Positions 51,737 through 55,027 of a stretch of 64,000 nt of DNA are shown here, piece by piece. Positions within the stretch are counted from its first letter, which is position 1, and each line of letters starts with the position of its first letter. The position numbers were made by a program, and so were the translations under genes. The notes under the pieces were generated by a model. The model had not been told where the DNA came from and searched no databases. It saw nothing but the letters and a program-made list of their open reading frames with translations. The stretch spans positions 60,387 through 124,386 of the forward strand of contig DF970669.1 of assembly GCA_001270045.2 (NCBI GenBank), written 5' to 3'. The DNA is from Bacteroidales bacterium 6E. Lineage in GTDB: Bacteria > Bacteroidota > Bacteroidia > Bacteroidales > Prolixibacteraceae.

Positions 51737-51828
51737 CATACCCATACTGATATTATTTCTTTATTATCCGGTTAAAAAACCTTATTTTTTCAGACTTGTT
51801 ATTGAATTATCAATTAAATCATTTCAAC

Positions 51829-53208
51829 ATGCATAACATTAATCAATACATTGAAACCAACAAGGAAAGGTTCCTCGAAGAATTGTTTGGCCTGATCCGG
51901 ATTCCATCCATCAGTTCCATCAAAGAACATAAACCCGATATGTACCGGGCTGCCGAATACTGGAAAAAGACTTTGCTTGAGGCTGGAGCCGATAAGGCCG
52001 AGATCTTCGAAACTCCAGGTAACCCTGTTACCTATGGGGAAAAAATCATTGATCCATCGCTGCCAACTGTCCTTGTTTACGGACATATGGACGTCATGCC
52101 CGTCGACCCTATCGAAAAGTGGACCACTCCACCGTTTGAGCCGGAGATCAGGGATGGTAAAATCTATGCCAGAGGGGCCGATGACGACAAAGGTCAGGGT
52201 TTTATGCACGCCAAAGCCTTCGAAATGATGGTAAAAACCGGCACCCTGCCATGTAATGTCAAATTCATGATTGAAGGGGAGGAAGAAATCGGGTCACCCA
52301 ACCTTGGAAAATGGTGCGAAGAACACAAGGATATGCTAAGTGCTGATATCATACTGGTATCTGATACCTCAATGATCGCCCCGGATAAGCCCAGCATCAC
52401 TACCGGACTTCGTGGATTGGCTTACTGGCAGGTTGAAGTTACTGGGCCATCACGTGATTTGCATTCAGGTCTATTTGGCGGAGCTGTAGCCAATCCCATA
52501 AATGTCTTGAGTAAACTTATTGCCCAAATGGTTGATGATAAAGGTCGAATTACCATCCCGGGCTTCTATGACGATGTAATTGAGGTATCTGCCGAAGAAC
52601 GTGCGTTGCTTGCAAAGGCACCATTCGATGTGGAAGCCTATAAAAAAGCCATCAATGTCGAGGCACTGGAAGGGGAAGAGGGATATTCCACCATGGAAAG
52701 GACCGGAATCCGGCCATCATTTGATGTCTGCGGTATCTGGGGCGGATATACCGGTGAAGGTGCCAAGACCGTCCTTCCTTCCAAAGCCTTTGCCAAAATT
52801 TCCACACGGCTTGTGCCTAACCAGGAGCACCACAAAATTGAAAGGCTCTTTAAGGAATATTTTGAATCAATCGCACCCCAAAGTGTAAAGGTTGAGGTTT
52901 CGTATCTCCATGGAGGACAGGGATATGTGTGCCCGATCGATCTTCCGGCTTATCGTGCGGCAGAAAAAGCTTACCAGGAAGTTTACGGCGTACGTCCAGT
53001 GCCGGTAAGGTCAGGTGGAAGCATTCCAATCATTTCTACCTTCGAGCAGGTGCTTGGCATAAAATCCGTATTAATGGGATTCGGCCTTGAATCTGATGCC
53101 ATCCATTCGCCGAACGAGAATTTCCCGCTTGAACAATTTTTCAACGGAATTCGAACCATCCCGCTGTTTTACAGGAATTTTGCCGAACTCATGCAAAAGA
53201 CCGTTTAA
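51829..53208 (+). CDS. M20 family dipeptidase
   Basis: A 459-residue zinc-dependent dipeptidase or carboxypeptidase. Metal ligands appear in VLVYGHMDVMPVDP (His, Asp), YARGADDDKGQG (bridging Asp), MIEGEEEIGSPN (catalytic Glu-Glu) and AIHSPNENF (last His). The lid/dimerisation domain lies at about 215-370 with RDLHSGLFGGAVANP. It hydrolyses dipeptides in the cytoplasm. The open frame begins at TTG 51796, but the ATG at 51829 (MHNINQYIETNKERFLEE) is the natural start. It has a strong terminator. Confidence 0.93.
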   Translation: MHNINQYIETNKERFLEELFGLIRIPSISSIKEHKPDMYRAAEYWKKTLLEAGADKAEIFETPGNPVTYGEKIIDPSLPTVLVYGHMDVMPVDPIEKWTTPPFEPEIRDGKIYARGADDDKGQGFMHAKAFEMMVKTGTLPCNVKFMIEGEEEIGSPNLGKWCEEHKDMLSADIILVSDTSMIAPDKPSITTGLRGLAYWQVEVTGPSRDLHSGLFGGAVANPINVLSKLIAQMVDDKGRITIPGFYDDVIEVSAEERALLAKAPFDVEAYKKAINVEALEGEEGYSTMERTGIRPSFDVCGIWGGYTGEGAKTVLPSKAFAKISTRLVPNQEHHKIERLFKEYFESIAPQSVKVEVSYLHGGQGYVCPIDLPAYRAAEKAYQEVYGVRPVPVRSGGSIPIISTFEQVLGIKSVLMGFGLESDAIHSPNENFPLEQFFNGIRTIPLFYRNFAELMQKTV

Positions 53209-53224
53209 TTATCTCAAGATTTAC

Positions 53225-53261
53225 AAAAAGGGGCTGTCTCAAAATGGGACAGCCCTTTTTT
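53225..53261 (+). terminator. Rho-independent terminator of the dipeptidase gene
   Basis: GGGCTGTCTC/GGGACAGCCC, a 10-bp stem (one T-G pair) flanked by A and T runs. Confidence 0.92.
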
Positions 53262-53353
53262 CTTCTTTATAGATAAGCTCTAATTATACCCGGCAAAATT
53301 CTACTCCACTATCAATCAGGTTTTGGACCCCTTATTACTTTTACAATAAAATT

Positions 53354-53430
53354 ACCATACGAACACCATTCTTTTACCATATGGAAATGGCAAAAGAATG
53401 GTAAAAGACTGGAGAAACTATGGTAAAACC
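53354..53430. repeat. Divergent array of seven 11-bp units around CCATATGG
   Basis: Three units beginning ACCAT start at 53354, 53365 and 53376. Four beginning ATGG or CTGG start at 53387, 53398, 53409 and 53420. All are exactly 11 bases apart; on the minus strand the left three read ATGGTAAAA-like. The centre is the palindrome CCATATGG (53377-53384), and an 11-bp perfect inverted repeat (53365-53375 with 53392-53402) links units across it. It lies between two convergent genes, so it is not an obvious promoter. One unit per DNA turn suggests a protein-binding array. Confidence 0.7.
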
Positions 53431-53553
53431 CTTAATCGGTATATAACAAAGCCATACCCATCTGGATAGACCACAGGTATCACATGGTTAATTCTTCAGA
53501 TTAAATGAGTGCCGAAATTTGAATGAAGTCTCGTTGTCAAAAAAAAGAATTGG

Positions 53554-54957
53554 CTACTTCCTGGCAACTTTTAACGCCTCAGTGGTTGTATAATATTTCA
53601 CAATCATGTTAGGCACCTCCCATTCAGGCAATTTTCCATCAACCAGGAACTGGAGGTATTTTTCGGTCACCTGCGTAAAGTGTGCTTCATGTCCAACCTT
53701 GTATTCATCTGGAATCACGATGGTCCAAATCCCTTCTGAAATCTTTGACAACCCAACCCCAGGAAATTTTGCAGCCAATGTTCCCGATACCGCGGCATTC
53801 AGGGATTCTTCAAACTTAACCAGGTCTGTATCTTCAGCGGCCTCAACATACAAGGTAGGTTTATAGTTTTGTTCTGCTCCCTGTCTGATGATCACATTAC
53901 TTTTCGATCCCCTCATGACGGAGAAGTGTGTATCACCGGTTCCTTCAGGCGCCTCAAAGTTCCAGATCACCGACACCTTGGCATGAATTCCACGAAGCTT
54001 ATAATTAAACTCACCATTGCTGTATACTTTCAGCAAGTTGTCATGAACATCCTTTTGCAAAAAATCAGGAAAATTCTCCATGCCTGTCACCTTGGAAAAC
54101 ATAGCAGGGGTCAGGTCAGTTGTCCATCGCCTTGCAGAGATCATTTCCACATCCTCTTTTGAAAGGATGACATCCGGAAATGTCTCCCATTGAATAAGGT
54201 CAACGAGGTGGGTGGTAACATCGACAATACCTTCGCCTTGCTGGAGCACATCAAAATACCATACAGGTCGCACCAATGGCTTTCCTGAAACCATTTTTGA
54301 AAAGTGATGAATACTCTCCTTTGTAACCGACGGTTCATCCACTGATCCTGGAAGCAATTCCCCAAATACTTCAGGCATATGGGCAAGTTCCTTCTGAAGC
54401 ATTGTAGTGATTTCATAACGCTCAGTCATGATATCATACAGCAAAACTTTATTCTCAGCTGCCTTGGAAAATGCTTGTTCAAGCATTGGAAAATTCTCTG
54501 GGGATATCACCATAGGTTTATCCGAAAGGACATTAAATCCAGCCTCCACAGACTTTAGGATATATTCAGTCTTCTTGGCATTGTTACCGGCTAAAACAAC
54601 CACATTCCCTGCTTTCTCCGCGAGCATTCTCGTAAAAAAATCGTCACCAAGGTATACTTCGGGTATCCAGGAAGTAGGATTCTCTTCCCTTGTGTTATAA
54701 CCAGTTATCAAACCCAGATGGGACTGCACTTCTTTTCCCTCAGGTGCATATATTTTCACCCTGGGGTCAATCTGGGCTAAAGGCAGCTTTTGCACCAATG
54801 CGGCATGAAAATGACCGGGATCCAGGGTTACCAGCCTGACTTCCCCCGGGGCTCCGGTAAATACATTTCCTTTTTCAGACGGAGCTTTTGTCTGGGTTCC
54901 GCATCCGGCAATTAACAACAAAATTACTGACATCATCCAGTTCAATTTTCTTTTCAT
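53554..54957 (-). CDS. Lipoprotein Gfo/Idh/MocA-like oxidoreductase with 'putative oxidoreductase C-terminal' domain
   Basis: 467 residues from the ATG at 54957 (the open frame starts at TTG 54963). Lipobox IAGC, Cys19, so it is anchored in the envelope. The N-terminal Rossmann-like domain (about 40-190) carries VRLVTLDPGHFHAALVQK, NVVVLAGNNAKKTEYILKS and the SDKPMVISPENF motif that stands in for EKP. The large C-terminal part (WYFDVLQQGEGIVDVTTHLV) matches the putative oxidoreductase C-terminal family of Bacteroidota. It probably acts on a sugar in the periplasm; the substrate is unknown. It lies 70 bases downstream of the URO-D-family gene. Confidence 0.8.
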   Translation of the reverse strand: MKRKLNWMMSVILLLIAGCGTQTKAPSEKGNVFTGAPGEVRLVTLDPGHFHAALVQKLPLAQIDPRVKIYAPEGKEVQSHLGLITGYNTREENPTSWIPEVYLGDDFFTRMLAEKAGNVVVLAGNNAKKTEYILKSVEAGFNVLSDKPMVISPENFPMLEQAFSKAAENKVLLYDIMTERYEITTMLQKELAHMPEVFGELLPGSVDEPSVTKESIHHFSKMVSGKPLVRPVWYFDVLQQGEGIVDVTTHLVDLIQWETFPDVILSKEDVEMISARRWTTDLTPAMFSKVTGMENFPDFLQKDVHDNLLKVYSNGEFNYKLRGIHAKVSVIWNFEAPEGTGDTHFSVMRGSKSNVIIRQGAEQNYKPTLYVEAAEDTDLVKFEESLNAAVSGTLAAKFPGVGLSKISEGIWTIVIPDEYKVGHEAHFTQVTEKYLQFLVDGKLPEWEVPNMIVKYYTTTEALKVARK

Positions 54958-55027
54958 ATCCAATTTTTGAGTCTGTTAAATCCTAAAAAGTAAAAATATT
55001 CTTTTAAAAAATATGTCTCTATCGGTT

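Follow-up and report, generated by a model that had tools for sequence, protein, structure and literature searches.

The array of 11-bp units at positions 53354–53430 of the window (here the whole 64-kb stretch of DNA that was analysed) is one copy of a dispersed element, and it belongs with a second array family; the two have unrelated unit sequences, the same 11-bp step and the same divergent design, and both occur in G000, the window's own genome, and in G016, a complete chromosome from another genus of the same family. Random insertion would hardly yield the even spacing of these sites over the whole chromosome, their mutual avoidance and their alternation, which point towards a mechanism by which distance along the DNA is measured or enforced. 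We give a probability of about 0.5 to the reading in which the arrays act in the manner of matS or Noc sites, as distributed sites of a putative cooperative DNA-binding protein that helps to organise the chromosome. No described system of this kind is known to us, and a full-text search of the open-licence literature for such repeats, their spacing and possible analogues found none; the phenomenon fits no known kind, and the proposed function is held at moderate confidence.

Direct reading of the site gives seven units of 11 bp, every step being exactly 11 bases, in two arms that face apart around CCATATGG and are joined by 11-bp perfect inverted repeats, ACCATTCTTTT (53365–53375) and AAAAGAATGGT (53392–53402), which bears out an earlier description made from the letters of the window (the sequence-only reading). 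The position between convergent genes given there is likewise correct, the ORF stops lying at 53208 and 53554. The ATGGTAAAA-like core which it ascribed to all copies is present in most units; it is only partial in the CTGGAGAAA unit and in the central unit of the left arm, which reads ATGGTGTTCGT on its own strand. The features of the site are the following:

51796–53208, plus strand: upstream ORF of 470 aa, M20-peptidase-like by eye, first convergent partner
53225–53261, plus strand: Rho-independent terminator-like hairpin of the upstream gene
53265–53520, plus strand: dispersed repeat in its approximate extent, the palindrome with the flanks common to the copies
53318–53449, plus strand: near-palindrome of 132 bp conserved among copies (model R1, positions 1–132; mirror register i+j=133)
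53354–53386, minus strand: left arm, made of three units of the ACCAT type (ATGG.. when read on the minus strand) starting at 53354, 53365 and 53376, read directly and by period scan
53377–53384, no strand: dyad CCATATGG between the arms, read directly
53387–53430, plus strand: right arm, four ATGG/CTGG-type units starting at 53387, 53398, 53409 and 53420, read directly and by period scan
53554–54963, minus strand: downstream ORF of 469 aa, Gfo/Idh-oxidoreductase-like by eye, second convergent partner

In a four-unit period scan the right arm is the best period-11 match of the 64-kb window (mean pairwise identity 0.727), the best match at the other periods from 7 to 17 scoring 0.667 and ten shuffled windows 0.515–0.636. 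The random-sequence test of the phasing that had been suggested thus places the right arm beyond the shuffles, whereas the left arm, at 0.636, only equals the best of them. A five-unit scan does not make the array stand out (0.527, against up to 0.567 at other periods and up to 0.545 in shuffles) because the arms face apart and five units cross the dyad. Allowing up to two mismatches, ATGGNNAAANNATGGNNAAA has nine matches in the window against 1.7 expected, a number reached in none of 100 shuffles; three of the nine, including the sole exact one, fall inside the array. The shuffles, the other periods and the pattern counts against controls rule out chance as the origin of the right arm or of the family.

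Further copies were recovered by blastn with 53209–53553 in G000 (4.44 Mb, 25 contigs) and in the congener G004 (66% complete), other genomes matching only the terminator hairpin part. At E≤0.01, a covariance model built from 20 copies identifies 23 separate places in G000 and another 16 in G004; since the core is palindromic, many of these places are matched on either strand. In five other congeners the same model has no match even at E≤1, and in G016 it has five weak ones. The core common to the copies, ACCATnnTTTTACCATatnnaAATGGTAAAAnAATGGTAAAAGACTGsAGAArCTATGGTaAAAC, lies within the 132-bp palindrome and is accompanied by further shared flanks which, outside these 132 bp, are not inverted repeats of each other. 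The arrays are short, non-coding and dispersed in multiple copies, as MITEs are. That whole repeats of about 250 bp are dispersed in G000 is mobile-like and counts against a chromosome organiser. Moreover, the absence of family-1 matches from five congeners, with one borderline period-11 match in 400 kb of G002, argues against an essential organiser, which should be conserved.

The search for such 11-mers at 11-base spacing proposed by the sequence-only reading was successful in G000, G016 and G051. The exact pattern (ATGGNNAAANN)x3 has 5 matches in G000, 32 in G016 and 12 in G051 and none in the other 58 of the 61 relatives (reversed control 0), and an order-wide exact-pattern search matched 4 of 393 genomes (reversed control 1 of 393). 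The elements of G016 and G051 are again divergent arrays, with (GGTTTGTCCAT)n, often degenerate in G016, on the left and (ATGGACAAACC)n on the right. The unit pattern matches 245 times in the 3.8 Mb of G051 (control 0), which suggests that arrays are denser there than in G016. A wider scan, with a single genome per species for 84,980 species, yielded 93 stretches, and the 80 listed ones were read by eye. Among these listed matches the divergent layout was seen at several loci in the rumen Bacteroidetes MAGs RUG14564 and RUG12171 (unit ATGGTTAAACA) and in Marinilabiliaceae JC040, and mostly one-way ATGGATAAAGC arrays were seen in a Chitinophagaceae and a Saprospiraceae MAG; singleton stretches in other phyla may be ordinary minisatellites. 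At the rumen loci L161 and L172 the units are alike within each arm and the arms differ from each other at 3–4 of 11 positions, as expected for direct-repeat recognition.

The second family is apparent from period scans. The four-unit scan of 400 kb of G000 yields five period-11 arrays (score at least 0.64) against 0–2 at other periods, and three of the five are of a new type (family 2) with a unit of about GAATAGTnATn. Twenty 20-kb samples of G016 yield eight period-11 arrays against 0–4 at other periods, six of which are of the new type, here with the unit GGTAACGGAAG around TTACTC..GAGTAAC. A family-2 profile built from the three G000 seeds finds 11 sites on C21 and C25:1-400000, about a quarter of the genome length, against 0 in reversed sequence, and no site within the 64-kb window. 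On C21 of G000 (752 kb), a scan that looks for divergent arrays without a preset motif returns eight period-11 matches (at least 0.56), all eight belonging to the two families, with 0–6 matches at other periods; it recovers 8 of the 12 known sites, and at a score of at least 0.64 period 11 has 3 matches against 0. The constant step, together with unit sequences that differ between families and genera, would fit paralogous binders of one geometry. In 400 kb of the congener G002 the motif-free scan gives one borderline period-11 match and 11 period-14 matches that are GAnTCnn heptad minisatellites; these heptads occupy 11 intergenic-looking places on G002:C33 (L357-L376), for example at 80046, 96071 and 157042.

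The spacing of the sites was analyzed in G016, which is one contig of 4,465,088 bp. At up to two mismatches the family-1 centre pattern has 51 matches, with 8 control matches at the same setting; the analysis kept the 39 rows that have no more than one mismatch and dropped the 12 two-mismatch rows, several of which match arrays already counted, on their opposite strand. The 39 centres have a mean gap of 114 kb and a CV of 0.432 against 0.96 for uniform placement, none of 20,000 simulations being as even, and addition of two further candidates gives a CV of 0.46 (0/20,000). The family-2 pattern, at up to three mismatches, has 137 matches and 0 controls; rows with up to two mismatches were merged into 58 loci, and three-mismatch rows were dropped; among the listed ones, those at 468, 508 and 647 kb fall within two of the longer gaps. 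The 58 sites have a CV of 0.609, again with 0 of 20,000 simulations as even. For the 97 sites of both families the mean gap is 46 kb and the CV 0.439 against 0.98 for random placement (0/20,000), and only 8 of 97 gaps are shorter than 26 kb. These lists of G016 sites are non-exhaustive, and random misses would raise the CV, not lower it. The families are also ordered with respect to each other: family-1 sites lie 41 kb from the nearest family-2 site, compared with 26 (sd 3) kb when positions are rotated (P 0.0005), there are 62 family switches against 47 with shuffled labels and 8 family-1/family-1 neighbours against 15.5 (P 0.0009), and random subsets drawn from all 97 sites have a CV of 0.79, against 0.43 for family 1 (P 0.0001). 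Random sequential placement with an exclusion zone of 22–24 kb reproduces the combined CV, so that the combined evenness needs nothing beyond an exclusion distance; the alternation and the evenness of family 1 come on top of this effect.

In 1.15 Mb of G000 the two families together give 18 sites with gaps of 32–101 kb and a CV of 0.355 (P 0.0002), a minimum gap of 32 kb being reached in none of 20,000 simulations; the CV is 0.43 (P 0.0016) without two weak family-1 sites and 0.51 (P 0.009) for family 1 alone within contigs. The spacing tests were picked after the positions had been seen, and the one on G000, which followed the G016 result, is the nearest to an independent check. The heptad arrays of G002 are spaced like random ones (CV 0.79 vs 0.88, P 0.38), and the control words of G000 are too few for a spacing test (two terminator words with 3 and 4 places, a REP word with none). 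A parS-like word has two palindromic places in G016 at two mismatches, as against 2 control matches; since this is the control level, it provides no origin map for G016. Two family-2 sites of G016 (G016:C1:3260067-3260112 and 3773829-3773874) lie directly beside a family-1-like centre word, TACCCAATCGATGGAGAA, and are perhaps hybrid arrays.

Comparison of orthologous sites reveals both stability and turnover. For nine of the 16 copies in G004, a copy stands between matching flanks in G000 (one judged from one flank), and a tenth, L070, matches beside a weak G000 copy on one flank. Over the nine orthologous pairs the array is 74% identical (51–91% by pair, the L018/L074 pair being at only 51%), against 48–68% in eight other 50-bp-scale bins. 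At L025 G004 has family 1 and the orthologous G000 site has a different 11-bp array, of family 2 (ACTATACAAGC/ACTATTGTATA/ACTATTCCAGA/ACTATTTAAGA). The array of L073 is present in G004 and the orthologous G000 site is empty; at L071 the G000 site is without an array, the nearest known one being 8–9 kb off. The comparison gave no assignment for L072, L075 and L076. As for the window site itself, for which presence in close relatives had been named as a check, the array is found there in G004 and is absent in G006, which has apparently the same convergent pair and a hairpin of its own. Among the other congeners the flanking pair is kept in G006 only, G001, G002 and G005 having other neighbours and the G003 contig containing too little to judge.

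In the 1.15 Mb of G000, 15 of the 18 arrays, counting the two families together, have a terminator-like hairpin nearby, and 16 of the 256 terminator-like hairpins of that sequence lie within 220 bp of these arrays, a count that stands without a matched intergenic-position control. By simple ORF calling, the 3' end of the upstream ORF faces the element in 29 of the 37 G000/G004 copies that have a called upstream ORF. In G016 and G051, 11 of 22 classified family-1 arrays sit between divergent genes, and location at the ends of transcription units is therefore not general. A family-1 element at L064 (G000:C25, about 263.8 kb) lies, by eye, directly downstream of an apparent tRNA 3' end and a terminator hairpin. 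Clustering of 616 neighbour ORFs revealed, besides spurious ORFs derived from the arrays, only four common families recurring at 4–5 loci, partly as orthologues, and no convincing partner or binding-protein gene beside the arrays.

We infer a role in chromosome organisation because two unrelated families space as one set and because one replaces the other at an orthologous site. Each site consists of a dyad flanked both ways by direct 11-bp units, one per helical turn; a DNA-binding protein would bind each unit and oligomerise head-to-tail outward from the dyad in both directions. The sites would then serve as organising or anchoring points every 25–100 kb, for example for a nucleoid-associated or segregation-linked protein, at positions that in G000 are mostly beside transcription terminators. 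Among the three readings that had been put forward for the window array, that of a nucleoid or partition protein array draws most support, from the even spacing, the two unrelated families and their common step and design, with no protein found so far. More tentatively, and with rather less than even odds, the arrays of some Bacteroidota may form a 'two-letter ruler', in which two unrelated families, each with its own putative protein, alternate about 25 kb or more apart and set loop or domain size. Such a ruler would add a layer not yet described to the organisation of bacterial chromosomes, one where site spacing is itself controlled. Nucleoid organisation in this phylum is, to our knowledge, little known, and sites that set loops or domains would provide a testable handle on domain size in Bacteroidota.

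A less probable account, which we regard as unlikely, is that the arrays are miniature non-autonomous mobile elements, two transposon ends placed back to back, each with several 11-bp transposase sites and moved in trans. Long-range target immunity, as known for Mu and Tn7, would prevent insertion within about 25 kb of an existing copy and thereby produce the even spacing. Cis-immunity of Mu is treated in the abstract of PMC7350765. The dispersed copies with flanks shared beyond the array, the patchy occurrence among genomes, the presence or absence of the element at L073 and at the window site in G006, and the fit of the gap distribution to a 22–24 kb exclusion are all consistent with such elements, and they leave some probability to the mobile part of the earlier suggestion of a mobile or regulatory remnant. 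On the other hand, the two families, although their units are unrelated, keep apart by a similar distance and alternate. The flanks that copies of the repeat share in G000 are not inverted repeats of each other, the array is better conserved than its flanks, and most G004 copies occupy the same place in G000. Moreover, no transposase family recurs beside the arrays among the 616 ORFs, the genome-wide search having covered Y1 transposases. Should the arrays be mobile elements, an immunity of about 25 kb common to both families would be unusual in its own right. By eye, tips GGCACTGTCC/GGACAGTGCC, which we take to be IS256-like, lie roughly 45–90 bp outside several G016 family-1 arrays (L110, L112, L113, L114, L115, L117, L118), as if arrays were insertion hot spots.

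We consider it very improbable that the arrays are transcribed RNA hairpins or terminator-type elements, for which 11 bp would be one A-form RNA turn. The window element does fold with z of -3.7 (plus strand) and -6.1 (minus strand) against dinucleotide shuffles, and 36 copies fold at a mean z of about -4 on either strand. The mirror register has 65.8% standard pairs against 36–41% in slid controls, 62 double-change cells against 21–37 slid and 42 shuffled, and a covariation excess of +112.6 against at most +52 elsewhere. However, with own-strand shuffles there is no strand asymmetry (mean z of -4.02 and -3.77, the minus strand folding better in 16 of 36 copies, P 0.39), an apparent minus-strand folding bias (30 of 36 copies) being lost with these shuffles, and there is no G.U excess. 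Pairs with any double change are not above shuffles (27 vs 23.8; 65/500), the RNAalifold consensus is weak (-4.5 kcal/mol, 8 pairs, 0 with double change), and none of 15 Rfam matches at E≤10 comes near its gathering score. Secondary covariation excess at -11, +11 and +22 reveals unit homogenisation, and template switching at the DNA level could produce mirrored covariation. Mirror covariation without strand bias or G.U excess leads us to place the symmetry at the DNA level; together with the arms of the two rumen relatives, which depart from strict complementarity at 3–4 of 11 unit positions, this speaks against the structured small RNA of the sequence-only reading.

Strong gyrase sites or intrinsically curved or wrapping DNA, with two phased arms around a centre downstream of transcription units, have an equally slight chance of being the explanation. 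The E. coli gyrase motif measures 130 bp, made of 47 bp periodic, 36 bp and 47 bp (PMC6379681; preprint PMC12393610), which the 132-bp two-armed symmetric layout resembles, and gyrase is enriched downstream of transcription units (PMC6379681); some of the terminator-like hairpins of G000 accompany arrays. In nine of nine consensus units the G/C power at period 11 is below that at periods 5.5 or 3.7, unlike helically phased G/C or A-tracts; unit composition without this phasing argues against helically phased curvature or gyrase wrapping. The arrays are, furthermore, sequence families and not a compositional pattern, and the attraction of gyrase downstream of transcription units is, according to PMC6379681, not hard-wired in motif scores.

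REP/BIME elements, likewise dispersed intergenic palindromes, and REP/RAYT repeats, which flank a cognate Y1 (PF01797) gene (PMC3733652), were rejected because 11-bp arrays do not flank such genes, those of G000 (L315) and G016 (L316) lying among other repeats with no period-11 array in these loci. The Y1 search had no match in the array-bearing G004 and G051. At L315 (G000:C10:36178-36522 and flanks) and L316 (G016:C1:2532862-2533119 and flanks), the Y1/RAYT-type transposase genes stand among their own dispersed repeats, ccccgtaggggtgacac... and ctgggagataggaagct... respectively, which are unrelated to the 11-bp arrays.

Among described repeats of the same phylum, the BrickBuilt MITE of Porphyromonas gingivalis also forms dispersed intergenic copies carrying short tandem units, 19 minisatellite-bearing copies being found in one strain (PMC4596501). 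It differs from the arrays in its 23-nt tandem units, its leader and tail and its IS-like terminal inverted repeats, and the available part of its description contains neither divergent 11-bp arms nor even two-family spacing (PMC4596501). Three ATGGTAAAAn-type units at 11-bp steps also follow a CCAACC..GGTTGG hairpin in prophage-like contigs and Enterobacterales genomes (viral contigs L228-L240 and others among L242-L259; also L136, L152, L153, L158, L169, L186, L192 and L201), the matching E. coli place being tRNA-Pro (L260). These are perhaps integrase arm-type sites, and they resemble the arrays in their units and step; each is a single site next to a tRNA, whereas the Bacteroidota arrays number dozens of sites. 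A short ATGGACAAA array with 11-bp steps lies downstream of a primase-like ORF at L241:2985-3120 (viral contig IMGVR_UViG_3300031760_000946), with no obvious integrase among the ORFs listed there.

The plasmid centromere parC, like the arrays, has clusters of 11-bp direct repeats of one helical turn each, its iterons being bound by the ribbon-helix-helix protein ParR. It is one locus beside its partner genes, whereas the arrays have diverging arms at dozens of chromosomal sites and no recurrent neighbour genes, no parM/parR-type family recurring in the clustering of the 616 ORFs. The sites of MatP (matS), Noc and SlmA are many dispersed chromosomal sites which organise the nucleoid, and the arrays share with them a dispersed, non-random chromosomal distribution and, with matS in Ter (about one per 35 kb), a similar density. 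Those sites, each a single short palindrome, are either tied to one chromosome region or excluded from it, and we know of no such even spacing for matS or Noc sites. The arrays, in contrast, are built of multi-unit divergent 11-bp arms and occur as two alternating families over the whole chromosome with exclusion spacing.
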